Below, piece by piece: positions 160 through 15,840 of a DNA stretch of 64,000 bases; positions within the stretch are counted from its first letter, which is position 1, and the number at the start of each line of letters is the position of its first letter. A program made the position numbers and the translations under genes. The DNA comes from Schizochytrium sp. TIO01 (lineage: Eukaryota > Sar > Bigyra > Thraustochytrida > Thraustochytriidae), in NCBI GenBank assembly GCA_004764695.1, contig SMSO01000031.1:6629261-6693260 (forward strand), in the 5' to 3' direction. A model generated the notes under the pieces. It saw only the letters and a list, made by a program, of their open reading frames with translations. It made no database searches and was not told where the DNA came from.

Positions 160-992
160 TTTAATGATGCCAAGAAATGGTGGAGCGTGAGGGAGGGAGG
201 GTTTTGGCACACTTGCAAACAAGCGCAGCCGCAGCTGGTCCATTAATCATACTGGTGTTCGGATCACATGTAATCGTGCATCGCAGTCCCTTTGAGCAGG
301 TGGCAATAGGTGAGAGGTGATGGCTTGCTTTGTAATCGAAAGGAGCTTTGGTTGCAATCAAACAAAGATTGGTGCTTCTTGAGATTGCAGACAACTTGAA
401 GGAAGACTCGAAGGACAGTAAGAAAGGCTTTGAGGCGGCGATATTGCTTAACACTCTTAGCTATTATTAGTGACATCTGCTACTAACAGGAAATTGCAAT
501 TTGCGTTGGTTTCCAATAACTCTCTCATCGTTCTTTTGGTCATCGACGATGGAAAGAAGGAAAAGGAGAAGAAGGCGATGGCAGGATGAAAGATCAGCAG
601 TTTACTTGCGTCCACCCGGGGCCTGAGAGATTGTCATTTGGGCTGAGGTGGAAGGTGTCCTTGTGGAATGGCACCCACGGTTAATTAAATTAATTTGAGA
701 CTCTGCGACCAAAGCCCTCAAAACAAGACCAATCATCCTTCTTCTTACGTGAAGAAATCGCTAAACATGGAAAAAAATCAAGGTAATTAATTAAACCACA
801 ATTCAATTTTCTAAGTCAACAACTCAGCGCTGCGGAGTTGCGGCGCCGCGAGTTCTTCTGGGCCGCTTGAGCTCACCCCTGCCAGGGCGCCTCTGCCTGC
901 TCCGTTACAACGAGGCGGCTGAGCTGCTCTGAGTGTGTTTGCTCTCTGCAGTTGCGAATCTAGCTAGCTAGCTAGACCTGAAATTTGGCGGC
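160..992. other. intergenic stretch upstream of the DHX8 gene
   Basis: No supportable gene. Open frames on the minus strand between 161 and 476 overlap one another and match no family I know. The DHX8-proximal part contains AT-rich segments (about 680-810) and a short CTAG tetranucleotide run (960-975) just before the start codon. This stretch should hold the DHX8 promoter and 5' UTR, but no TATA box or initiator can be assigned with confidence. Confidence 0.5.
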
Positions 993-3900
993 ATGGAGGA
1001 CCTTGACCGCCTCTCGCTGGTGTCGCGAGTATCTCGCGAACTAGAGACCGGCCTAGGGATCGGTGAAGAGGCCCTTGCAGAGTTCTTTATCTCCCTCGCC
1101 AAGGAGCACGAACGCAGCGGCCCTGATGCTTTCGTGGCGGCACTTCATGAGCAAGATGACAGCATTCCTGAAGACCTCGCGCGGACCATCTTTGCGCTTG
1201 TCGCCGATATGAACGCGGCTAGTAGACCAAAGGGCCCCACTTCAGGGAATGGTGACGCGGGACCCTCCTCGAAGTCTCAGGACCCTCTTGCAAACAAGCT
1301 TCCGGGACTCTCGAGGCCCGATGAAAAGGGCCCAATTGGCGTAGGAGAAGGCCGTGATTCTGCCACAGAGCGAAGGCTTCGCGAACTTAGAGCGCAGTTG
1401 GACAAATCTGCACCCTCAAGCGACTCTGCAGACCATAGGAATGCAAATCTTGGGAACGGTAACTCAAGGTTCGGAAGCGGAAGAGAAGGCGTCTCCATTA
1501 AGAGAGGCTCCGAGAGCGAACCTCTGTTTGGCAAGGTTTATCAGGGAGTTGTGAGAAATGTGAAGGACTTTGGTTGCTTTGTAGAGCTTCCGGAGTTCGC
1601 ATCGAGGTCGTCTCGTGGAGGTGGTATTGTAGAAGGCCTAGTTCGTGCGAACCAAATGGCGAGGGATATGAGAGATAAAAAACCGTATGATGTTGTTCGG
1701 AGGGGAGACAAGGTACTGGTGAAGGTCGTGAGCCAACCAGGAAACAAGTTGTCTTTAAATATGGCGGAGGTGGATCAACAGAGCGGCGTGGACCTCAGGC
1801 CTGCCAAAGGATCAGCGAACTCATCAGTCTCGTCAAACTCTGTTGTAACGTCCACAATGGCATCTACGTCTATGAGAGACCCTATGTCACGAGAGCTGCC
1901 AGGTATTGTACAGCGCAAGCGCAAGATGAAACACTCTGAAGAAGAACTCTGGGAGATCCGACAACTCATTAACTCTGGTGCATTGCCAAAAGATGCTTAC
2001 CCAAGCTTCATTGAGGAAAAAGGCGCAGCCGGTGAATTTGAGGAAACCGAGGAGGAGCTGGAGATTGAGCTCAACGAGGCTGAACCTGCATTTCTAAGAG
2101 GCCAAACCGAGTTAGCTGCATCAATTGGACAAGTCAAGATTATCAAAAACCCGGAAGGTAGTATGCAACGTGCAGCTGAAAATCAAGCTGCCATCGCAAA
2201 AGAACGCAGGGAGCTCAAGCAAACAGAAGAACAAGCGCTTCTCAATGCTGTTCCTCGAAACTTGTCGCGTGCTTGGCTAGATCCCATGGCTGATGAGCGT
2301 GAGCGTACTCTAGCTGGTGATCTTCGCGGCATCACTCTCCCCGGGAAAGAAGTCCCTGAATGGAAAAAGAGCGCTTTTGGTAACAACACTAGTTTTGGTA
2401 TCGTATCTGATCGTTCGATTCAGCAGCAGCGCGAAAGCTTGCCTATTTACCAACTGAAGACCGCACTTTGCGAAGCCTTCGTTCAAAACCAGATTTTGAT
2501 TGTGGTAGGAGAGACAGGGTCTGGTAAGACAACACAGATGACCCAGTACCTCGCAGAGATGGGTTTTACAAAACGTGGCATAATTGGATGTACACAGCCG
2601 CGTCGCGTGGCTGCTGTGTCAGTAGCCAAGCGTGTTGCTGAAGAGGTAGGGTGCCATATTGGCCAAGAGGTTGGCTACACAATTCGCTTCGAGGACTGCA
2701 CTGGGCCAGAAACTGCGATTAAGTATATGACAGATGGTATGCTTATGCGAGAGATGCTCATGGACCCAGATCTTAAGCGGTACTCCTGCATCATGCTGGA
2801 TGAGGCTCACGAGCGTGGCGTGAGCACTGATGTATTGTTTGCTTTGCTGAAGAAATTAGTGATGCGTCGCAAAGATTTTCACCTGATTGTTACTAGTGCG
2901 ACGCTAGATGCTGAGAAGTTTTCAAAATATTTCCTTGATGCCAAAATCTTTTCTATTCCTGGTCGAACGTTTCCAGTGGAGATTATGTATGCTAAAGAAC
3001 CAGAATCTGATTACATGGATGCCTCTTTGGTTACTGTAATGCAGATTCATTTGAACGAAGGCCCGGGTGATATTCTTCTTTTCTTGACTGGTCAGGAAGA
3101 GATTGATACAGCTTGTGAAGTGTTGTTTCAACGTATGCAAAAGTTGGGAAAGGGCGCTCCAGAGCTTGTTATCCTTCCTGCTTATGGTTCTTTGCCCAGT
3201 GAAATGCAAAGTCGAATTTTCGAGCCAGCTCCGCCTGGTGCACGCAAACTGATTGTGGCCACAAACATTGCAGAAGCCTCTATCACAGTTGATGGTATTT
3301 ATTATGTTGTTGATCCGGGTATGTGCAAAATCAACGCATACAACCCGAAGCTGGGTATGGACTCACTAGTGGTGACACCGATTTCACAAGCCTCTGCTCG
3401 TCAGCGTGCGGGTCGTGCTGGTCGTACGGGTCCTGGTAAATGTTTTCGTCTATACACTGAGTTAGCTTTCAAGACAGAGATGTTGCCAACCAATGTACCG
3501 GAGATTCAACGAACCAACCTAGGTAATGTTGTGCTGCAGTTGAAGAGTATGGGTATCAACGACCTCCTCAGCTTTGATTTCATGGATCCCCCTCCTGCAC
3601 AAACTTTGGTTGCTGCTTTGGAAAAGCTTTATGCATTAGGGGCTTTAGATGAGGAAGGCCTGCTTACTCGCATGGGTCGAAAGATGGCTGCGTTTCCTCT
3701 GGATCCTATTCTTTCCAAAACACTAATTTCTTCTGTCGAGCTGGGTTGTGCAGAAGAAGTCGTAACAATTGTAGCCATGCTTTCCGTTGAGAATATTTTC
3801 TTTCGACCGAAGGAGAAGCAGGCTCAGGCTGATCAAAAGAAAGCCCGTTTCCACCAACCTGAGGGTGATCACTTGACATTGCTTGCTGTGTACGAGTCTT

Positions 3901-4406
3901 GGAGGAGGTCGGGCTTCACGTCAGCATGGTGTGCGGAACAGTTTATTCAAACGCGTTCTATTCAGCGAGCCCAAGAGATTCGCAAGCAGCTTGTTGGTAT
4001 TTTGGGGCGTTACCAAATGCCTATTGAGTCTTGTGGTCGTAATTTCAAGGCAGTGCAAATGGCTATTGCTAGTGGGTTCTTTATGCATGCAGCCAAGCGT
4101 GATCCTACTGAAGGGTACCGTACTCTGGTTGAGGGTCAACCAGTTTTCATTCACCCTGGTTCTGCGCTGTTTCAGCGCAACCCAGAGCTTGTCATTTATC
4201 ATGAATTGTTGCTCACTTCTAAGGAGTACATGCGACAGGTCATGGTAATTGACCCGAAGATTTTGATTGAGGTAGCACCAAACTTTTACCGGAGCGCAGA
4301 CCCTCACCAGCTTACTCGGCGTAAGAAGCGCGAGCGGATTGAACCTATGTACGATCCTCGCGACCCTGGAGCACAAGCGTGGCGGTTGTCTCGGCGTCGT
4401 GGTTAG
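993..4406 (+). CDS. DHX8: DEAH-box RNA helicase PRP22/DHX8 (spliceosome release)
   Basis: 1137 residues in one uninterrupted frame; the ATG at 993 begins a segment ([18 protein letters not shown]) that matches the usual DHX8 N-terminus. In order: an N-terminal helical module (about 5-70), a low-complexity linker, an S1 RNA-binding domain (about 175-260, [20 protein letters not shown]), a charged linker, then the helicase core with P-loop GETGSGKT (about 507-514), DEAH (603-606), SAT (635-637) and motif [16 protein letters not shown], followed by the HA2/ratchet and OB-fold regions to the C-terminus. In yeast and human, the S1-plus-DEAH combination is diagnostic of Prp22/DHX8, which remodels the spliceosome to release spliced mRNA. 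Residues essential for ATPase activity are intact. Its presence fits a genome that still splices, as the Rab gene at 20 kb shows. Confidence 0.96.
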
Positions 4407-4973
4407 AAAAATAAAATATCATTCATTTGTTTTGAACATGTAGAGTATAACATCTGTTCATGTTTTCTATCGTCCTTTTTCTTCTAAATTTAAGGATCAT
4501 ATCCTGCTGCTGAGTCTTTTTCATCAAAGATCATCATCATTACTATTATAGTTATTATATATACATTTTTTAAAATCGTATATTTCGTTTTTCTTTAAAG
4601 GTTAGGCAAGAATTTTTAGATGATAAAAAAGACTGTTCTTGTTTTTGCTTTTAAAGTAAAAAGATACTTTTGATTAATTTTTTTAATTTCAGTTTTTGGT
4701 GTTTTACAAAAACGAATACGAAAACTGGTGGGTCTCCATTCTGACACATTTGAGCAAAACCGATGTATGAAGCTCTCCGTATCCACGGCCCAAGCGGGAG
4801 ATGAGTGCAGATATAGTTGGATTCGCATGCACAATTCGTCGCTCCGCACTGCCTTTTCATGCGCTGCCGTATGCCGCTGACCTACCTGCTAAGGGCGATG
4901 GCGTTCGATGTGACAAGGCGCGAGTGGGCTGGATGAAGAAGAGCGCGGGCGCGTTACACGGAAGAGGGAAGGG
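4407..4973. other. intergenic stretch after DHX8
   Basis: AT-rich DNA directly after the DHX8 stop, with AATAAA-like A-rich runs that may serve as its 3' end signal. No gene was recognised. The open frames here are short and unlike known proteins. Confidence 0.5.
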
Positions 4974-5320: not shown

Positions 5321-5812
5321 TTACTGCTCGGGGGCCTTGCCGTCGCGGGCGGCGGCGCTCGCCACGGTGCCGGCGGCGGAGTGGCTGACGGCCTGAGACT
5401 CGAGCTGCTCGTCGCTCGGGGTGATGCCGAGGAACTCGCGGTTCTTGCTGCCGAAGGGGCCCTTGCTGCGCATGGCGCTGCCCTGGTGCTGGAGGCGGTG
5501 CTGGGTGGCCTCCTCGGCGTGCTCGGCGCCGGTGGCCTCGTTGAACTGGTACTTCTCGGCGCCCTTGGTGGGCTCGGCCACGAAGAACTGGTATCCCGCG
5601 TAAGCCAGAGTCAGGGCCATGATGCCGCCCAAAAGCTGGGTGCCGTTGCTGGAGCTGGTGCCGGACCCCTTGGCCATCACGTTGGGGTGGCCGCCCTCGC
5701 CTTGGCCGGCGGCGGGGACCTTGTCGGTGTTGCGGCCTGCGGTGGTGGTGGCGGTGGCCTTGAAGCGGCGGCCGACCTGGGTGCGGGCAATGAGGCGTGC
5801 GTTGGAGAACAT
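5321..5812 (-). CDS. P1: predicted mitochondrial single-pass membrane protein, PAAGQ-GGHP family
   Basis: 163 residues, ATG at 5812, stop TAA. The N-terminus is Arg/Ser/Thr-rich without acidic residues for about 28 residues, like a mitochondrial presequence. It is followed by the motif PAAGQGEGGHP (33-43), a hydrophobic segment at about 59-78 (one membrane pass), then FVAEP.K...YQF and a soluble tail with GITPSDEQLE and SAAGTVAS. The motif, membrane segment and tail recur in the gene at 9275-9787; the motif and membrane segment recur at 11195-11494. The three are therefore paralogues. I know of no named family with this motif. Codons are strongly G/C-ending, unlike P2 and P3, as in the highly expressed STI1 gene; this suggests higher expression of P1 (inference). 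Function unknown; an accessory subunit of an inner-membrane complex is one possibility. Confidence 0.8.
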   Translation of the reverse strand: MFSNARLIARTQVGRRFKATATTTAGRNTDKVPAAGQGEGGHPNVMAKGSGTSSSNGTQLLGGIMALTLAYAGYQFFVAEPTKGAEKYQFNEATGAEHAEEATQHRLQHQGSAMRSKGPFGSKNREFLGITPSDEQLESQAVSHSAAGTVASAAARDGKAPEQ

Positions 5813-6322
5813 CTTGCTACTCTGCTTCGTCTTCCTGACTTCTTGACTGCGTGTCTTCTACGTGCTCTGCCGAGGCGGTTCTTGTCTTCTTCTTCTTTGG
5901 CTTTCTGGTTTCGGTTTTGCTGTTGCGGATTTGCTGACCCCTCCAAAGCGCTCTTCGCCGCCGCCAAAGTCCTCGCGCCCCGCACCGCCTAGGACTCACC
6001 TACCCACCGCTAGGACCGCTCCTAGGAAGCCTACGGTTCTCCGTACCTGGAACTTTGGGAACATTTCGCGCTGATTCTTTCTTTCCAACTCGCTGAGTCC
6101 CATGAGTCTCAGCCGCTTCCAGACACTTCCAGGCGCCATGATCGCGAACTCGGGGCTTGTCAAGCGGTGGAGACTGACCTCCTCGGCGGGCGGGCGGCCC
6201 GGGCTGCCGATTCTCGCGGGTTCTCTGCGGTTGATTCGCCTTTGCTCGCTAGATCTCGATGGTTTTTGATTTAATTATTGACTAACTTTAATTGTATTGC
6301 AATTAATCAGAAAGAGAGACTC
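5813..6322. other. upstream region of P1
   Basis: GC-rich DNA that should contain the 5' UTR and promoter of the minus-strand P1 gene. It has several CCTAGG-like and CTAGGA elements (about 5989-6035). Overlapping low-complexity frames on both strands are not considered genes. Confidence 0.4.
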
Positions 6323-6377
<55 letters not shown>

Positions 6378-6380
6378 AAA
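6323..6380. repeat. (GAAA)n microsatellite
   Basis: About 58 bp of near-perfect GAAA tetranucleotide repeats on the plus strand. Open frames across it (poly KERK or poly LSFF) are caused by the repeat and are not genes. Confidence 0.95.
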
Positions 6381-6409
6381 TACTTTTTACTTCATCTCCA
6401 CATAGTGCA

Positions 6410-6548
6410 AAGAAGAAGGAAGAAGAAGAGAAGAAGAGAAGAAAGGAGAAAGAAGAAAGAAAGAAGGAGAAAGAAGAGAAGAAGAAGAAGAAAAGAAGAA
6501 GAAGAAGAAGAAGAAGAAGAAGAAGAAGAAGAAGAGAAGAAGAGGAAA
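6410..6548. repeat. 139-nt uninterrupted polypurine tract, mostly (GAA)n
   Basis: Every base from about 6410 to 6548 is A or G, mostly GAA/AAG triplets and imperfect GAAA units. Homopurine-homopyrimidine mirror tracts of this length can adopt triplex (H-DNA) structure; that is known chemistry of such sequences, not shown here. Confidence 0.95.
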
Positions 6549-7529
6549 TGTTGCTGCCGCGATGTCTGTGGGCACCTGGTGTAGTAAATGTGTTTGCGCA
6601 GGCGTGATATCGAAGGCCCCATTTTATGCTGAAAACATACACCTTGCTTCGTTCGAACTCGACAGAACCGGTGGTCAGCTTGCAACCCAACTTAAGCTCG
6701 TTGTCCGTATGTGTTTATCTTCGCATTCTTCACTGCATCTCCGGCGATTGATTACTTCTTTATTCATTCCCTTCTTTTAGCTTTCATTAAATTTTTATTT
6801 TTTTTATTTTTTTTTAAATAAATAGATCTACAAACTTATATTCACAATCGTAATAACAAAGGTACATACACGCATGCACAGATTCGCCTAGGTAGCCGCT
6901 AGGGGGTCCTAGCGCATGCACGCGCGCACACTCCGCAAGAAGAATGACTTTGAGAAGTTGAGCAGAACTCGTGCAAGCAAAAGTTGGGAACGCGGCTCAA
7001 GAAGAAGACCAAAAGGCCCCGCAAAAGCACTCGCGGAGGGAGCACAGCGACGACAGCAGCAGCAGCAGCAGCATCAGCAGCAGCAGCAGCTTCTTCAGGC
7101 GCGGAAGCGAGCGCGCGGAGCCCGCCGCCGGCACTCGACGCCAGCAGGGCTTACAGGCCAGCAGCAGCGCCTCTATCGGCGCTCTCGCGCTCGTTGTCGT
7201 CGTCGCTGTTGCCGCTGTCGCCGTCGTTCTCCTCGTCGTCCTCGCCGTCGTTGTTGCCGTCGATCAGGGCGTCCCCGTCCTCGCCGTCGTTGGTGCCGTC
7301 GACGTCGCCGTGGTCTTCTGGAGTGCTCGTGCTCGTGCTGTCGGGTTCTTCACCGGCGATGGCTGGCGCGGCCTGAGCATCACTCGCGGCAGCCGCCAGG
7401 CCCGCGGCGAGCGGAGCGGGCGAGACAATCGCCGCCGGCTCGAGCGAGAGCTTCAACCGAGACCGTCAGGAGGAAGAGCCCGGCTCTGGGCGCCTCCGGC
7501 ACACGCTCGCGCAGACTGATGGACGATTT
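6549..7529. other. intergenic, trinucleotide-rich segment
   Basis: Contains a CAG/CAGCAG-rich run (about 7045-7100) and a long imperfect GTC/GCC triplet region (about 7180-7320). All reading frames through it give single-residue-rich products (poly-Arg, poly-Val/Ala, or Asp/Asn/Gly/Glu on minus), the usual sign of triplet repeats. A 208-codon Arg/Gln-rich frame from an ATG at 6916 exists but has no recognisable domain. No gene is supported. Confidence 0.5.
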
Positions 7530-7620
7530 GACAGACAATTGACAGACAAGTTGACAGACGAACTGACACGCGCACTCGATCGCTCGCTCGATCGCTCGAT
7601 CACTCGCGTTCGATGGATCG
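7530..7620. repeat. short tandem blocks TTGACAGACAA and CGATCGCT
   Basis: Degenerate repeats of TTGACAGACAA-like units (7528-7570), followed by repeats built from CGATCGCT/CTCGATCG (7575-7615). Low-copy, imperfect tandem arrays immediately before the 14-bp minisatellite. Confidence 0.8.
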
Positions 7621-7649
7621 CGGTCTTGGCAGCAGGCGCAGGACCTACG

Positions 7650-7918
7650 GCGTAGAAGACCTTCTAGCTTGAAGACTTTAGCTTGAAGACCTCTAGCTTG
7701 AAGACTTTAGCTTGAAGACTTTAGCTCGAAGACCTCCTAGTTCGAAGACCTTCTAGTTTGAAGACCTTCTAGTTTGAAGACCTCTAGCTGAAGACCTTCT
7801 AGCTTGAAGACTTTCTAGATTGAAGACTTTAGCTTGAAGACTTTAGCTTGAAGACTTTAGCTTGAAGACTTTAGCTTGAAGACTTTAGCTTGAAGACATC
7901 CTAGCTTGAAGACTTTAT
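7650..7918. repeat. 14-bp minisatellite, unit TTTAGCTTGAAGAC, about 18 copies
   Basis: The hexamer GAAGAC recurs about 18 times at 14-17 bp spacing. The most regular section (7828-7895) repeats TTTAGCTTGAAGAC exactly; flanking units carry CTCCTAG, TTCTAG or TCTAG variants. Neither strand keeps one open frame through the array, so it is not protein-coding. Confidence 0.9.
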
Positions 7919-7920
7919 AG

Positions 7921-7972
7921 CTTGAGGTCGTGCTTGAGGTCGTGCTTGAGGTCGTGCTTGAGGTCGTGCTTG
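7921..7972. repeat. 12-bp minisatellite, unit GAGGTCGTGCTT, four copies
   Basis: Four near-perfect 12-bp units follow directly after the 14-bp array, then decay into related units (to about 8000). The 12-bp period gives in-frame repeats on both strands (LEVV on plus, KHDL on minus), which explains the short open frames here. Confidence 0.9.
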
Positions 7973-7999
7973 GAGTCTTGCTTCGAGGCCTGCTTGAAG

Positions 8000-9274
8000 A
8001 CTTTCTCGCATTCTCGCTTTCTCACGGCTTCGCAGGACCCTCTCTGAGGCTCAACGCCGAAAGGTGTGCGAACGCTGCGCTTCGCAGGATAAAAGAAAGT
8101 GTTGGAAGTAAAGACTTCGTTCACGATGGTCTCGCAGCGCATCCATTCTCGCATCCACGCTCTTGCTCTTGCTCTTTCTTGCGGGGGCCGAGGGGCCGGC
8201 AGGGGAGAGGAACAGGCGGGCGCGGTGGCCGAGGAACAGGAGGAACGATGGGAGGGCTTTGGACGGGTTGGACTTTAGCTTGCTTGCTTTGTTGGTTAGT
8301 TGATGTTATAGAAATTAAAACTTGAATGGGTTTTAAAATAAATTTGTTTTTAATTTTAAAAGGAAGTATGCTTATTGTTATTATTCTGTAGGTATCATAT
8401 CATATTATATATATGGATATAAATTAATTAAAAAAAATTAAATAAGAGAATTGCTAAAACTGAGAAGTTAGCTTTTATTTCCCTTGAATTTTTAATTAAA
8501 ACAAATAAATAAAAATGCAGATAAAAAACGTGAGCCAGTCGCAAGAGACCAACCAGCGGAAAACGCCTGTGTGAGAGAGAGAGATACATGCCTTCACATA
8601 AGGTAGAAGAAAAACGAAGAAACAGAAGATCAGGGGAATCAAGATATCAACTCTTCGAGAGCACGGACATACAAGGAATCAAAATGGCACATTTAAGGCT
8701 CTAGAGGGCAAAATGGGTCCTTTTTGATGCGAATTCTGTAAGAATATTTCGCAGAGTGTTGATTGATCCAAAACTGTTGGACATCTTAAGAATCCAGTGA
8801 ACTCTCAAGGGGAGGGAACGACCTGGCACGTATATTAAACTAGCAAGCTGTTGCAAGATTTTGGGTGACCATCAAAGCAGTGATTCTTAATTCTTAGCAT
8901 TCTTTTACTCGACAATTTAGAAATAGAAAAAATAGAAAAAATTGAAAAAATTGAAAAGATGAAACTTCAGTTTGTTTGCCCGACCGAATAAATGATACAT
9001 AAAAAAGCAATTTCTGATTCTCAAAGATCCCACCCCGTTTCATGGCCTTGAGCCATACAGTGACAACATTGTTGGTCATTTGAGTACTCTGGAATGCATA
9101 TCAAAATGTACCACATCATACCTGAAACCAAGATTGCAAAATAAAACAATATCAAGCAAGAAAAAGTAAACTTGTAGTGATTAAACTCAAACCTTATATA
9201 TTTACAGTGTTTACACCCAACAAAATGTGGGTCGTAGATACATTCGAAGCAAGTCGACCAAGATTGAGAAACAA
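8000..9274. other. intergenic, AT-rich
   Basis: No gene was recognised. The first third is GC-richer and still echoes the minisatellite; from about 8320 it becomes AT-rich with long A/T runs (8330-8540). The last 200 bp presumably hold the 3' UTR of the minus-strand P2 gene. Confidence 0.5.
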
Positions 9275-9787
9275 TTACACGGCGTCAACCTTCTCACCCT
9301 TGTGCGCCTGGACACTGGCAACAGTTCCAGCCGCCGAGTATGTCGTAGGCTGCTCCTCAAGCTTCTTGTCGCTCGGCTTGATACCCAAGATGCCCTTATC
9401 CTTGAATGTGAAAGGACCAAAGCTCCAGGTATTCTTACGAGCAAGCGTAGCTGCCTGAGGGCTGGCTGTCTCCGTGATTTCTGCCTCGCGTCTCTCAGGA
9501 TCAAACTGGTATTCTTGCTTGCTAGGCTCCACCACGAAAAGCTTGTAGGCTCCTGCCACAAGAACACCGGCCATGATGATCTTAAGTGGAGTGAATGCGG
9601 GGCGCTTGGTCAAGCTAAAAATGCGCTTACCCATGTGGTTAGGCTGCATCACATGTGGATGGCCACCTTCAGCCTGTCCAGCAGCAGGCACCTTGGCAGC
9701 ATTGCTGCGACCGGCATCTGTTGTAGCGGTGGGGGCATGTGTCGCGAAGTTGCGCGTCATGCGAAGGTTGCTCCAGGCGCGGTTCAT
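9275..9787 (-). CDS. P2: predicted mitochondrial single-pass membrane protein, PAAGQ-GGHP family
   Basis: 170 residues, ATG at 9787. It has a basic presequence-like N-terminus (MNRAWSNLRMTRNFATHAP), the motif PAAGQAEGGHPHV (34-46), a hydrophobic segment at about 68-86 and FVVEPSK.EYQFDPERRE just after it. The C-terminal part contains GPFTFKDKGILGIKPSDKKLE and SAAGTVAS. P1 has the same order of elements (GPFGSKNREFLGITPSDEQLE, SAAGTVAS), so these two are full-length paralogues. Codon use is more A/T-ending than in P1. Separated from P1 by about 3.5 kb of repeat-rich DNA on the same strand, consistent with an old tandem duplication. Function unknown. Confidence 0.8.
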   Translation of the reverse strand: MNRAWSNLRMTRNFATHAPTATTDAGRSNAAKVPAAGQAEGGHPHVMQPNHMGKRIFSLTKRPAFTPLKIIMAGVLVAGAYKLFVVEPSKQEYQFDPERREAEITETASPQAATLARKNTWSFGPFTFKDKGILGIKPSDKKLEEQPTTYSAAGTVASVQAHKGEKVDAV

Positions 9788-11194
9788 CTCGTCTTGTCTT
9801 GTCTTGTGAAATCTAAGGTATTTCTCGTTCCAAAAAAAAATGGTCTCTACGTAAGCTAGCTCCTGCTGTTTGAGATTGGCAAAGCTTTCAAGTTTGGGGT
9901 TTGATTTGATTTCCTATCTCAAAATCTGCAAGGCCGATTCAATCTCACCAGCATACATTTATGCATGCTTGCATACATACCAGTTACCCCTCATTTAAGC
10001 CCCGGGCTATCAGCAATAGCAGCAGCTAAGGGAGAAGCTATCTGGCTAAGACACATGAGGCCGAGCATATCGAGAGAGCTTCGACTGTACTATACATGCG
10101 GTCAAGCAACAAACGCAAGAACAGCATCATCGCGCAGTACACAACATACGACCCTAAGCTGAAGCACTGGAGCTGCAGGTCATGCTCAGTTGGTGCAGAT
10201 ATCTAACGTAGGTAGGCAGGTACCTAGAGATAGGTGCACCGCACTGCAAACAAGTCAACCATTGTGGCAAATTGGATGAGTCCCAACGTTTTCTATTCAT
10301 TGTCACTGGATCTATAGAATTCACTCGCAGTGCTGTGATTTTTCATGTATAAATCGGAGGTAGGTACAGTTGCCATATACTGTGTGGTAGTGAGTTCTAC
10401 TGTGCATTCAAGACTGTCCCTGAAGCTTTGCGTTCCGCTTCGTACCCTCTCATATGTTAAATTCTGTTGGCTGAGACTCTTAAGCAGTTCCTTGCACAGC
10501 AAAACGAACATCGGGGAAACGGGAAATCTTCTGTGCGTTCAGGGTGTGCCTCCACTAAAAAATAACGACTCGGAAGAAAGAGAGGTTATCGGAGAAAGTG
10601 TATTGCTTCGTTCTGTTCTGTTTCGCGCCGTCACGCTGGAACATCCCAACATGTTTCCTGCGCGTCGAGGTCTGAGGCGACTTCCGTCGACGATGGTGCT
10701 CGAGATTTCAGGTTAATAAATATCTGCAATGCCCTGAGTGTGTGCTTATAGTAAATACCTTCATTCATAGTTATGCAAGGTCCAGTGAAAACCTAATTGC
10801 CGTTGCGACGCGTCGAACATGATAAGATATAGAAGTTTTCTTCAATTAAACGAGACGTCATCCCTAATCAATTTAAAAATCGTAAATGAAAATAATTGCA
10901 AGGTAGGTCTGGGTCACTCCCAGAGGCTGTGGAATAGAGCACTTGCGGTATTTGAGGCATTGAGCTGAGACCGAGACTAAATCTTTTCCTTCGGAAAAAG
11001 TGTCTCCTCTGGCAACTCAATGACTGTTGGCAATTTCGAAGGCCTTGGTGTCGAGCAAATCTAGAATTGCAGTTTCTTAATTGTCAATCGTAAATCGAAC
11101 TGCTGCCTCTGTTGTTCGTAAATAAAAAGCTTTGTTTGCAGCAAGGGATATTTGCAGTGGAGCTGCCAGGTGCAGTATCGTAAGACGCATAATT
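9788..11194. other. intergenic between P2 and P3 (divergent)
   Basis: About 1.4 kb between divergently transcribed paralogues, so it should contain both promoters. TAGGTAGG-type motifs occur near 10208, 10353 and 10902. A 123-codon frame from an ATG at 10345 has no recognisable domain and is not called a gene. Confidence 0.4.
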
Positions 11195-11494
11195 ATGAAT
11201 CTATTTAAAGGCATAGCTCGCAAGCTCAATAGACCCCCAGGCATTCACACAACCCGCCCCATGTACAAAGCAACATCTGCACCAATTCGCGACACTACAA
11301 TATTTCCCGCCGCTGGACAAGCACAAGGTGGACACCCCCATGTGCTTCCGCAGGGACAAATGATGTTCCGATTGGCAGGCCAGTCAGGGCTTGCACCTTT
11401 TAAGACTATTTTGGGAGGTATCGTTGCTGTTACCATGATCAAAGTTCTGCTCCTCGACCCAGCGAAACCTCGTGCTAAACATCAACCTCAATGA
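11195..11494 (+). CDS. P3: short member of the PAAGQ-GGHP mitochondrial membrane protein family
   Basis: 99 residues from the ATG at 11195; the frame is open further upstream, but the first codon of that longer frame is not ATG. The N-terminus MNLFKGIARKLNRPPG is basic and presequence-like. The motif PAAGQAQGGHPHV (38-50) is followed by a hydrophobic segment at about 71-87 and LLLDPAK, matching F.VEP.K of P1 and P2. The protein ends there: the GI.PSD..LE and SAAGTVAS tail of P1 and P2 is missing. An A/T-rich flank follows. It is either a naturally short paralogue or one that lost its 3' end. Function unknown. Confidence 0.7.
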   Translation: MNLFKGIARKLNRPPGIHTTRPMYKATSAPIRDTTIFPAAGQAQGGHPHVLPQGQMMFRLAGQSGLAPFKTILGGIVAVTMIKVLLLDPAKPRAKHQPQ

Positions 11495-12295
11495 GAAGGG
11501 AAAACAGCATCTCTTCAGCCACTTATCTGCAAACAAATTCTTCATGCTTGAAATGTTCTGTAGAAAATAATACAATGTAAACTCATGTAAAAACTGCCAA
11601 CCCCCTGAGAATTGGCTGCCGCCAATTTCATAGTATCTAAATTTGAAGTCTACTTCTACCATGAAATTAAACTTGTGTGTAGATGATACCATTCTGTAAA
11701 AAAATAAAAATGTTTTGCTTTGCATCTTGGCTTTCATGCAACTTTTAGAAAAGAATTAACGAGATCAGAGCCTACCGGCATAGTCAAAAAACGATTGATG
11801 ATCTCTTTGAAACTACTGCATTTAAATAGATGAAAACGACACTTTCGAAACTTTTCTCTCAAGCTATCATATAGTTACAAAGACGAAAAAAACTTGACGA
11901 ATCAATCTTTTGCCTGACAATCCATATCTTGTAGAGTCAGAGATGTGCTATATGGATAGCTTGAGGTACCTGTGGGCTACTGCATCATCACTTGACAATT
12001 GTCGTCTTTTCCCAAAGTGTTCTGTCAAGCTCAAAGAGCATCAAGGATTGTTAACCTAACTGCAGTACAACCCTATCAAAGCATCTTCTCTGTTGTTGAA
12101 GCAACAAAACAAAATCCGATTCGTACATTTTCACTTTGCTAAATATTGCTTCTTTACCCAGAAGTTCTTCTTCAGCCAGACCAAAACCAGTCTCCTATTT
12201 CTTCTCCACTCGGATTGCATCTTCTTCTCTGGGTGCCCTTTCTCAATCCTTATGAATGATGTGGCACACTTTTGTACTACCATATACTATATGAT
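11495..12295. other. intergenic, AT-rich
   Basis: The 3' flank of P3 and AT-rich sequence with no recognisable gene; short frames on both strands lack ATG starts or similarity. Confidence 0.5.
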
Positions 12296-12487
12296 ATGAA
12301 AAGATTACAAGAGAGTGTGGTTTTGCCTGCACAACAACTTCTGGCAAGAGCAAAGATAGCCAGGTCTCTTACCTCAAATCCTGTATCGGCGTCGCGGCAT
12401 CTCAGCAGCGGTGCCAGTAAGGTTCTCTCCTCCTCAGCTCTGCGCCGATCTAATCTTTACAGGATAAGTTTCCTTTTGCGAGGCTAA
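12296..12487 (+). CDS. small open frame with presequence-like N-terminus; possible unspliced first exon
   Basis: 63 codons from an ATG at 12296. The product is rich in Arg, Ser and Ala with almost no acidic residues and includes SRHLSSGA, resembling a mitochondrial targeting peptide with a cleavage site. A GTAAGG donor-like hexamer sits at 12417-12422, so this could be a first exon whose partner I cannot place. The next gene (12539) has its own start and a type II membrane topology, so joining them is unattractive. Alternatively it is a decayed gene fragment or chance. Confidence 0.2.
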   Translation: MKRLQESVVLPAQQLLARAKIARSLTSNPVSASRHLSSGASKVLSSSALRRSNLYRISFLLRG

Positions 12488-12538
12488 CTTAGAAAAGTGC
12501 ATCGTCTTGAATTGTCTGGTGTGCGAGGCGACGCATGA

Positions 12539-13720
12539 ATGAGTCGCCGTCGCGTATCTTCAAGCGGCGCCATGGATAACCCGGTTAATGAGGCAGATGG
12601 CATGGAGCTCGGTAGCATGGACGCAGCATCTGTTGCCAAGAAGCGAAGTGGGACTGGAGCATATGACGTGGACGAGGAAACTGAGCAGCTCTTGGACCAA
12701 TCTTTTCAGCCAGCTCCAGGAACTACTTCGAGCACCGCATTTGCAGGGAGCTCTCGCCAACGTGGAGTTCTCAACTACGTTAAAGCATGGTGGAAGGGTC
12801 CTAAGACTTGGCGCACTGCTCTCGGCATTTTTGTGGGATTTGTCATCTATTACTACTTAGTGCGTATGGTCAACACCCCATTGCAACTCCGTTTGGACGC
12901 GCCACAGCGCTTCTGTCCGTACCTTGATACCTCTGCGATCGAGTTACGTCGCGCTGGACTTCCTAATTCTATGAAATCGTCGAAGATGAAACTTGGTATC
13001 GTGACATTTTTTGGAAACATGGATCCTGAGATGCGAGCCGCGTCTATCGCGAACAAGGAAACTTACGCAGCTCGCCACGGATATGACGTCATCGTGGCTG
13101 ATGAAGATATTGATAAGTCCAGGCCAGCGGCGTGGTCTAAATTTATCATTTTGAAGAAGTACCTTGATAAGTATCAATACTTGATGTGGATGGATGCAGA
13201 TGCACTCTTCATGAATATGACCATTCGTGTCGAGGATCTCATCGACAGCCACCACGAACTCTTTTTCGCACGCGATGAAGCTGACATCAACTCTGGTATC
13301 TTCCTTATTCGCAACTCAGAGTGGTCCAAGTGGTGGCTTGATCAAGCCTGGGACCAAACCTGGCTCATCAAGGGAAGCCACCCGTTCAAATACGAGCAGC
13401 GGGCTATTCAATACATGTATGGTGTGGAAGCTATGGAGAAGGATGCCGAAAAGCACAACCGCCCACTTTATGAGCATAGAGAGGACGTTCGAAGCAAGAC
13501 GCAAGTCCTCCCTTACTGTGCTTTCAACTCGAACATTTGCGAGGAGTTTTGGACTGGCCTTATCCTCTTTCGCCGTAGGCAGGTGGCTGGGTGGATTTGC
13601 GACAATGTCTATGCCAACGGCGACTTCATCATTCATTTTGCTGGCAAGACTCCAAGCTCTTGGCGTAATTGGCTCTTTTTGGAGTTTGCCGAGCTTGCCA
13701 AACAGAAAGATGCTCTTTAA
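12539..13720 (+). CDS. GT34-type glycosyltransferase (galactosyl/mannosyltransferase, GMA12/MNN10 family)
   Basis: 393 residues, type II membrane topology: an acidic cytosolic tail of about 90 residues, a membrane anchor at about 93-108 (TALGIFVGFVIYYYLV), then a lumenal catalytic domain. KLGIVTFFGNMDPEM (about 151-165) begins the nucleotide-sugar fold. WMDADALFMN carries the DxD metal/nucleotide site (D219, D221), INSGIFLIRNS (about 250-260) is the conserved acceptor-side element, and FIIHFAGK (363-370) is near the end. These features are those of family 34 Golgi transferases, which add galactose, mannose or xylose to glycans; the exact sugar cannot be read from sequence. An ATG in another frame at 12535 overlaps the start, so leaky scanning may affect translation. 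It converges with the TTL-like gene, 214 bp between stops. Confidence 0.9.
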   Translation: MSRRRVSSSGAMDNPVNEADGMELGSMDAASVAKKRSGTGAYDVDEETEQLLDQSFQPAPGTTSSTAFAGSSRQRGVLNYVKAWWKGPKTWRTALGIFVGFVIYYYLVRMVNTPLQLRLDAPQRFCPYLDTSAIELRRAGLPNSMKSSKMKLGIVTFFGNMDPEMRAASIANKETYAARHGYDVIVADEDIDKSRPAAWSKFIILKKYLDKYQYLMWMDADALFMNMTIRVEDLIDSHHELFFARDEADINSGIFLIRNSEWSKWWLDQAWDQTWLIKGSHPFKYEQRAIQYMYGVEAMEKDAEKHNRPLYEHREDVRSKTQVLPYCAFNSNICEEFWTGLILFRRRQVAGWICDNVYANGDFIIHFAGKTPSSWRNWLFLEFAELAKQKDAL

Positions 13721-13934: not shown

Positions 13935-15392
13935 TTAGAAGAGTTTCTTGTAGCCGTTTGAGGTTCTTGTCGTCAGTGGTTCCTCGCATGGGAAGAACGT
14001 CTGATCCATAACTATATCGAAGGTATCGTCTATAACCCGAGGAATGAGTGCAGAGAGGAGAGGACACACTCTTTCTAGACATGGATTTTCGTTTATCTCA
14101 ATCAGCTTTACTCTCCGGTCTATACCTGGATCATCGGTTATCATAAAGTCAAGTCCAAATAGCTCAAACCTTCTGCCACACCCTGTCGGTTGAATACCAG
14201 GGAGTGCATTAAGGAATGTTTCCTTAGAGATTGTGCAAATCTGTGGCCAGAAAGAATCCATCACCTGTTTACCTGCACCCTCACCTTCTGCGGCATCTAA
14301 GACCTCAGCTAGCTGGGTCATGCTTAATTTGTTTCCAGCTTCTATAGTACCGTAGTCACTTGCTTTGTTTTGAACAGCATCATTTGTAAGATGGACCAGT
14401 CGATCATTAAAATTTTTGATAGAATACGGTCTGCTTGACGTTCGTACATAGGCTTGTTCGTGGAGATATAACTGAAACCCATCATGAACATGGTGGTTTG
14501 GTTCTGCGGAGAAACTTGCCGATAGGAGTTGGCTATGACTGGTAGATAATCCATCTCCAGCCTCTCGATTGCTATCAACTTCTGGCTCATTTGGCTGTGT
14601 TGTATCGTCGCAGCCCTGGTTCGTCACGTGTTCTATTACCTTTTTTGTACTTGCAGCACTTGATGAGCCCTTGTTAAGAATAAGGAGGACATAACAGCGA
14701 ATGTCAAACTTTCGCCCGTGCACAAGCAGGGGACGCTCGATATACTCTTGCACAATCCACGTTTTGCGCTTACTATCTTTCCCCTCTAAGCGTTCAATAA
14801 GCTCTTTGGCAACATTGTTACGAGATCGAGCCAGGAAAATCCCTACTCCTCGGTTAGTTCCACTTCCAGGTTTGACAATGAAAAGCCTCTCATTGTCCGT
14901 GTCTTGACCTTGTTCTTGCCACGCAAGAATTTCTTCTGAGTCAGCATTAACTTGGTATGATCTAGGTGCGAAATCTAGGGTTTCAGGTCTTTGTGAAAGG
15001 GTCTCTAAGAGTCCCTTTTTACTCGTAACAACTTTATTCGAGTCGAAGTGATTAATTATAGGCTCAGCAAGACGATTCGATATAGATTTCAATGAGCGTG
15101 TTCTCTTTCCAGGTTGCGAGTTTGCAAGTTTAGCAGAAGGAATTTCACCTAGCGATGACCGATACTGACACCAGACAAAGTCAGCCTTCGCCAGTGCTTC
15201 TTGTTGCCGCTCTTTTGCTGTGGAGCTATCCTTCCCTTGCCCTGGTACAAAAGGAGACCATCCCTTTCGTAGACGGAACTGTCGCCGAATTAAGTCTGCA
15301 CTATTCCCATTTGCGACGCAGTAACGAAGTCTCGATGCAGGCCTATCTAGGCCCAGCTGTTCTCCGCTGCGCTCCCTAGCTCGACGCTGCAT
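13935..15392 (-). CDS. tubulin-tyrosine ligase-like (TTL family) protein
   Basis: 485 residues from the ATG at 15392. The frame is open to about 15470 but no ATG lies further upstream. TTL-domain landmarks, numbered from this start: FIVKPGSGTNRGVGI with the ATP-binding lysine near 174, WIVQEYIERPLL and the RKFDIRCYVLL strand (about 212-238), HLTNDAVQ (334-341), FELFGLDFMITDD, and LIEINENPCLE (430-440), which carries the metal-binding Glu and Asn. The family ligates tyrosine, glutamate or glycine to tubulin tails, usually on axonemal or cytoplasmic microtubules. A poorly conserved, Ser/Asn-rich insert (about 240-302) splits the ATP-grasp core. Which amino acid is added cannot be decided here. 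Confidence 0.88.
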   Translation of the reverse strand: MQRRARERSGEQLGLDRPASRLRYCVANGNSADLIRRQFRLRKGWSPFVPGQGKDSSTAKERQQEALAKADFVWCQYRSSLGEIPSAKLANSQPGKRTRSLKSISNRLAEPIINHFDSNKVVTSKKGLLETLSQRPETLDFAPRSYQVNADSEEILAWQEQGQDTDNERLFIVKPGSGTNRGVGIFLARSRNNVAKELIERLEGKDSKRKTWIVQEYIERPLLVHGRKFDIRCYVLLILNKGSSSAASTKKVIEHVTNQGCDDTTQPNEPEVDSNREAGDGLSTSHSQLLSASFSAEPNHHVHDGFQLYLHEQAYVRTSSRPYSIKNFNDRLVHLTNDAVQNKASDYGTIEAGNKLSMTQLAEVLDAAEGEGAGKQVMDSFWPQICTISKETFLNALPGIQPTGCGRRFELFGLDFMITDDPGIDRRVKLIEINENPCLERVCPLLSALIPRVIDDTFDIVMDQTFFPCEEPLTTRTSNGYKKLF

Positions 15393-15840
15393 TTTGTTGT
15401 AGCTTTGTCGCACAGGCTTTAGAGTACAGGGAAGACTAGCCAAAATGGCAGCCTTATTGTGATCAAGTGTTTAATTTTCGCAAGCGTGCAGTTTCCATGG
15501 AAGTAGCGAGAAAAAGGCATACTTCGTCATCAACCCACAAGCTTGTAGCATCATACGCAGGTAAATGCATAAACGGGGCACTCAGCAGTACTAGAGTGTC
15601 AGTAAGGAAGGACCTCAAGAAAGAAAGAAAGAACCGTTAAGTCTATGGTCACATTTGACCTAATAGTGAATCCCGTGAGAATCCTGCAATTGAGAGGCCG
15701 GGCTAAGAAATGCCATCTTGATAGTTAACCTGGTTCATGTTAATGTAACATGGTGATGGGTGATACAAATCACAAATGAGTGTCAAAATAGATGCAGGGG
15801 AACAAAATATGTGGCATAAAAAGTTTAGAGTATAAATTGT
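15393..15840. other. intergenic between TTL-like and STI1 genes
   Basis: About 450 bp upstream of the TTL-like gene and downstream of STI1, both on the minus strand. It should contain the TTL-like promoter. A short GAAAGAAAGAAAG run lies at about 15620. No gene is seen. Confidence 0.5.

Follow-up and report, generated by a model that had tools for sequence, protein, structure and literature searches.

Three small genes, P1, P2 and P3, which lie in a window of 64,000 nucleotides from Schizochytrium sp. TIO01 (the whole stretch of DNA analysed, C30:6629261-6693260), belong to a protein family that is real and coherent and that is best read as a divergent NDUFA4-like branch. The family, called here the GGH family after a tripeptide of its motif, has at least 12 loci in the genome searched (64 Mb in 37 contigs), three in the window and nine on contig C33, and it is through the C33 genes that the window trio is tied to the B12D/NDUFA4 proteins.

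The window trio and its relatives on contig C33

P1, P2 and P3 have in common the motif PAAGQ..GGHP, one hydrophobic helix and an (E/D)P.K element, with all three reading frames open from ATG to stop. P1 (163 amino acids, minus strand, 5321..5812) carries PAAGQGEGGH at 5687..5716, its helix (residues 60-78) at 5579..5635 and, in its long tail, the element GITPSDEQLE, common to P2 and the C33 array, at 5399..5428. P2 (170 amino acids, minus strand, 9275..9787) is likewise long-tailed, with PAAGQAEGGH at 9659..9688, a helix (residues 68-86) at 9530..9586 preceded by a PAFTPL turn, and the tail element GIKPSDKKLE at 9356..9385. P3 (99 amino acids, plus strand, 11195..11494) is short-tailed, with PAAGQAQGGH at 11306..11335 and its helix (residues 69-87) at 11399..11455; it was taken from the ATG at 11195, the reading P0004, which begins before the ATG, being left unused. 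The motifs were located by six-frame search, the tail elements by motif search, alignment and shuffles, and the helices by Kyte-Doolittle hydropathy, supplemented for P2 by a helix-only profile; the helix coordinates of P1 and P3 are derived from residue numbers. Across the six frames of the window P.(A/K)G(Q/L)..GGH occurs exactly three times, once in each protein, while (G/A)I.PSD..LE and SAAGTVA each have two occurrences, confined to P1 and P2. The best 19-residue hydropathy mean is 1.52 in P1, 1.97 in P2 and 1.99 in P3 and the next best 0.54, 0.11 and 0.21, respectively, indicating one clear hydrophobic stretch in each. A missed second exon bearing a PSD tail for P3 was rejected, as none was found in the three forward frames of 11195-12600.

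When used as a query against the whole genome, P2 recovers P1 at E 1.9e-21 (46% identity) and P3 at 1.9e-8 (34%), P1 recovers P2 at E 8.1e-22 and P3 at 0.0026, and P3 recovers P2 at E 8.4e-9 and P1 at 6.0e-4. With such E-values in a 64-Mb genome, the likeness of the three is therefore not due to chance. The initial annotation had described three clustered paralogues, each with a single hydrophobic helix, and a tail common to P1 and P2; the open reading frames, genome E-values and motif counts confirm the cluster, hydropathy bears out the helices, and the common tail is borne out by its two elements. A weak match of P3 at C30:6012003 (E 0.517), within a low-complexity-rich open reading frame of 494 amino acids, was taken as chance. 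Codon bias differs strongly among these neighbouring paralogues, the G+C content of third codon positions (GC3) being 0.94 in P1, 0.60 in P2 and 0.40 in P3.

Further members were found on C33, where P1 had six weak matches (E 0.12-0.26, with 58-75% identity across approximately 24-31 tail residues) and P2 one (C33:288144, E 0.026). By genome search these relatives comprise a tandem array of eight genes, all on one strand (C33:195569-214252), and a singleton, S1 (C33:288147-288419). Over the query, five of the array proteins show no difference, one more is 99% identical and the remaining two are 84-85% identical, with the coding stretches of the first six, all of which were taken into the DNA-level comparison, differing pairwise at 2 to 9 positions per 336 bases and copies 2 to 6 spaced approximately 1.9-2.6 kb apart. 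We read this arrangement of six near-identical and two diverged copies as the outcome of gene conversion or of a recent amplification. Among the three distinct array forms the pairwise non-synonymous divergence (dN) is 0.09-0.12 vs a synonymous divergence (dS) of 0.49-1.17, and the diverged array copies are under purifying selection. Array proteins run from a basic start through KFPEAGQSHGGHSKFL, the helix and KPSKGPW to NNREILGITPSDAKLE, an order like that of P1 and P2. All nine C33 members carry the motif and helix and the eight array copies also the tail, S1 being short-tailed as is P3; a missed PSD-tail exon for S1 was likewise rejected, with none downstream in three forward frames and only an unrelated PSD in another frame at the S1 start.

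In alignments, profiles, scans, substitution counts and shuffle tests the six near-identical array copies stand as one sequence, giving seven distinct members (P1, P2, P3, S1 and the three array forms). Six columns are invariant across the seven: R, P, three G and one H. The initial annotation had held GGHP to be invariant, which is true of the trio, but across the seven members only GGH holds, the next residue being S in three and L in one.

On the evidence of the sequences the window trio belongs to one family with the C33 genes, P3 being its weakest member, because profile, profile-profile and shuffle tests all join them. A forward profile built from S1 and the three array forms, and run against 849 open reading frames of the window and 6000 shuffled copies of P1-P3, placed P2 (1.8e-10), P1 (5.1e-8) and P3 (0.037) at ranks 1-3 of 6849, and with the exon of an NDUFA4-like gene on contig C24 (see below) added to the profile the values were 2.6e-10, 6.3e-7 and 0.0027. 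S1 alone as query was led by P2 (1.7e-4) and P1 (0.0053), with P3 outside the best 10, and with a single array form as query P3 came third, barely clear of the decoys (0.35 vs 0.41). The reverse profile, built from the trio and searched against 6505 entries, recovered S1 and all eight array copies with E-values between 4e-9 and 8.6e-8, no decoy doing better than 0.091, and profile-profile comparison of the trio with the C33 genes gave a probability of 98.4%. The parts hold separately, with 0 to 17 of 5000 shuffles matching the score of the N-terminal parts alone in six comparisons and 0 of 5000 that of the C33 tails against either P1 or P2. P1, P2 and P3 thus show both the order motif, helix, (E/D)P.K that defines the GGH family and significant likeness to the C33 array and S1.

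Possible relationship to B12D and NDUFA4

In a Pfam scan four of the seven distinct members match PF06522 (B12D, NDUFA4/MLRQ; a model of 54 positions with a curated cut-off of 21.5 bits) and no other family is matched. S1 scores E 1.8e-4 and 21.3 bits over 21 of the 54 positions in the protein scan, and 21.7 bits in the genome search with its frame neighbours; one C33 form gives E 0.0027 and 17.5 bits over 25 positions, and the C33 copies range over 17.5-19.7 bits. The ten places listed in the genome search are a gene on contig C24 (1.7e-8), S1 and the eight array copies, the latter nine at E 0.012-0.19. When the helix region of S1 was shuffled none of 10 copies matched B12D, and one weak match (E 0.28) was to an unrelated family. 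The C24 gene (C24:875651-875776), which has an apparent GT-AG intron after MSAPARQLSRHITAD and is without the GGH motif, is a candidate for the ordinary NDUFA4.

Alignments were also compared with a mixed NDUFA4 set (two PDB sequences plus the C24 gene), with C24 alone and with human NDUFA4 alone, significance being judged by column shuffles. The seven-member alignment gave P 0.0023 against the mixed set with the helix aligned (0 of 100 shuffles), P 7.3e-4 against C24 (0 of 100) and P 0.09 against human NDUFA4 (1 of 100), and the alignment of C33 and S1 gave P 5.1e-4, 8.2e-4 and 0.049, with 0, 0 and 6 shuffles per 100. The helix of P2 alone ranked first against the relatives' helix profile, above all 2000 of its own shuffles, and the second-ranked "natural decoy" in this test was P2's own open reading frame.

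A number of results weigh against this relationship. Up to E 10, P1, P2 and P3 are without a match in the Pfam scan, the relatives' match covers only 21-25 of the 54 positions and lies at or below the cut-off, and PF06522 also gives below-cut-off matches in 2 of 14 control genomes. The hhalign probability against the mixed set is low (12.6% for the seven members, 31.3% for C33 plus S1), while the scores of the trio profile were matched by 47 (mixed set), 7 (C24) and 56 (human) per 100 shuffles, with the C24 gene outside its 400 best. Taken alone, the helix of P1 is marginal (54 and 7 per 2000 shuffles in two profiles) and that of P3 shows no likeness (315 and 393), and with C24 alone the counts are 13 for P2, 269 for P1 and 620 for P3. 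The C33 tail, which by eye resembles that of NDUFA4 (PW....G.N), was rejected as an NDUFA4 tail, 588-3291 of 5000 shuffles matching its score in six comparisons, and the tails of P1 and P2 fared no better against two NDUFA4 tails (1114-4799 of 5000). The B12D relationship of P1, P2 and P3 would therefore be indirect, a two-step chain via their relatives, and they are not filed as B12D members. The initial annotation's view of the family as unrecognised holds for P1-P3, which match no Pfam family, but not for their nine paralogues, which tie it to B12D/NDUFA4; a match to a respiratory subunit, which it had named as evidence against that view, was thus very nearly obtained, being found in the relatives but not in the trio.

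It is quite possible, if somewhat doubtful, that the GGH family instead stands apart as a lineage-specific subunit or assembly factor of the inner membrane, belonging to complex I, complex III, ATP synthase or the import machinery, with a helix that is merely B12D-like. In keeping with this the likeness to B12D is confined to the relatives' helix and absent from the trio by profile, the N-terminal motif and tail are without an NDUFA4 counterpart, and a canonical NDUFA4-like gene that lacks the motif is already present in the genome. However, nine of the ten places that the genome search listed for PF06522 are GGH family genes, although all helices of the genome were visible to the model, and no other Pfam family matches any of the seven members. 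Outside Pfam, two weak NCBIfam matches among the seven members, to L35 (E 0.069) and FecA (0.16), and sequence matches to the solved structures of Mediator 4 (E 0.092), HMG-CoA reductase and thiolase (1.2) and MmpL3 (1.3) were taken as chance. A profile search of the PDB gave no convincing chain for the family, nor did it for the C24 gene, so that this search is weak, and 85 pattern matches in viral contigs and 452 in prokaryote genomes yielded none confirmed by tblastn.

Predicted topology, selection and the conserved motif

Under the NDUFA4-like reading, P1, P2 and P3 may be divergent isoforms of an NDUFA4/B12D-like branch whose members, with one helix each, would be peripheral subunits of complex IV or of a supercomplex, a proposal for which the sequences leave the scales about level. 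The basic N-terminus would probably direct the import of each protein into mitochondria, and the one helix would anchor it in the inner membrane in the orientation of NDUFA4, the N-terminus facing the matrix and the C-terminus the intermembrane space; there it may bind at the periphery of cytochrome c oxidase or of a supercomplex. With the topology of NDUFA4 applied to the family, the P.AGQ..GGH element, which is without a counterpart in the C24 gene, would lie in the matrix and serve for packing or for contact with a partner, and in the long forms the GI.PSD..LE tail would provide a contact in the intermembrane space. The several diverged copies are suggested to be interchangeable isoforms, an exchange that is reasonable for so many copies given the replacement of vertebrate NDUFA4 and the rice B12D genes (see below). 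The fuller proposal, that a lineage-specific set of at least 12 loci places a matrix AGQ..GGH contact and an intermembrane-space PSD tail on an NDUFA4-like helix to give isoform-defined versions of complex IV or supercomplexes, is rather unlikely to hold in all its parts.

A mitochondrial location for P1-P3 is likely, not proven, and a presequence plausible. Residues 1-30 hold 6, 4 and 6 basic and 1, 1 and 0 acidic residues in P1, P2 and P3, respectively, so that the N-terminus the initial annotation termed presequence-like is indeed basic and poor in acids, but its amphipathic moment is no different from shuffles (p 0.73, 0.17 and 0.076), with three of eight proteins (C33g, C33h and C24) above them at p < 0.05. 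The charge flanking the helix on its N and C sides fits an N-in orientation in P1 (+1/-1) and P2 (+4/-2) and does not in P3 (+1/+2) and S1 (0/+2), which also tells against the proposal.

It is improbable that P1, P3 or both are duplicates that are in decay or unexpressed. The uneven codon use would suit decay, as would the lack of a tail in P3 and the substitution counts of distant pairs, which do not point to constraint, the proportion of non-synonymous differences (pN 0.47) exceeding that of synonymous ones (pS 0.39) for P1-S1, although counts at such distances are uninformative and confounded by the GC3 bias. Against it, the three frames are intact, S1 is short-tailed as well, which shows that the short form recurs, and pN is below pS for both P2-P3 (0.41 vs 0.76) and P1-P2 (0.41 vs 0.71, with synonymous sites saturated), the pattern of P1-P2 being as under purifying selection.

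The least probable alternative, which follows the initial annotation in seeing an unrelated and entirely new family whose GGHP binds a metal or a partner, could draw on the lack of a direct family match for P1-P3 and on the invariance of GGH in 7 of 7 distinct members, but a partner site would fit the NDUFA4-like reading too, the relatives match B12D, and the metal-binding site, one of two options in the initial annotation, was rejected, there being a single conserved His with no second conserved ligand and a variable residue after GGH.

P1, P2 and P3 lie among genes of eukaryotic kind, including those for a DEAH-type helicase with S1 and OB_NTP_bind domains (993-4406), a GT34-type glycosyltransferase (12539-13720) and a tubulin-tyrosine ligase family protein (13935-15443). 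The glycosyltransferase gene (GMA12/MNN10), the neighbour of P3, is intronless and its product has a weaker match to DUF273 as well. Between P1 and P2 there is a tandem repeat (window 7655-7997) of approximately 18 copies of a GAAGACTTTAGCTT-like unit of 14-16 bases, followed by a 12-base GCTTGAGGTCGT array. An Rfam scan of the window gave no match.

Known counterparts and implications

NDUFA4 (COXFA4, MLRQ; PF06522), a respiratory-chain subunit belonging to cytochrome c oxidase, resembles the GGH family in being a small single-helix protein, in the P...P(L/I) turn that opens the helix in the relatives and P2, and apparently also in the helix itself of S1, the C33 copies and P2. It differs in that P1-P3 are without a model match, in the long N-terminal part with P.AGQ..GGH, which the C24 gene and the human sequence lack, in a tail that is unrelated by shuffle test, and in the family's at least 12 loci. 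In human complex IV the N-terminus of NDUFA4 is described as facing the matrix, and the C-terminus as lying in the intermembrane space close to COX6B1 (PMC12894743). NDUFA4 is also described for protist complex IV, being placed at the complex IV dimer interface in Tetrahymena (PMC10060162), while the Toxoplasma protein is reported to have a lineage-specific extended C-terminus, a lumenal helix of which touches TgQCR6 of complex III at the supercomplex interface (PMC12350165). Vertebrates are reported to swap NDUFA4 for paralogues under stress, the set comprising MISTR1, MISTRH and MISTRAV (PMC7793259), and rice to have six B12D genes, one of them flooding-induced (PMC4159805). Such stress-linked isoforms offer a model for keeping diverged copies, although on these accounts the family described here has far more copies, the majority arranged as a single tandem array.

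The literature searched, which left subscription papers and protist protein databases outside its scope, held nothing on NDUFA4 with Schizochytrium, and no GGHP together with transmembrane and mitochondrial. Stramenopile papers naming NDUFA4 have no such motif in their NDUFA4 passages, and a term search of the main text of a proteome paper on Aurantiochytrium limacinum (PMC12221091) found no NDUFA4, B12D, MLRQ or cytochrome c oxidase.

On the present reading, what looked like an orphan family becomes the subject of a respiratory-chain hypothesis that can be tested, the interest of the family lying in its copy number and its extra N-terminal element. The occurrence of P.AGQ..GGH upstream of one helix may serve as a signature for annotating small unnamed proteins in related genomes. 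If the NDUFA4-like reading is true, a subunit of this kind would have multiplied well past the three paralogues of vertebrates, with tails of two types and a tandem array, and would lend itself to studying the tuning of cytochrome oxidase and supercomplexes by peripheral subunits.

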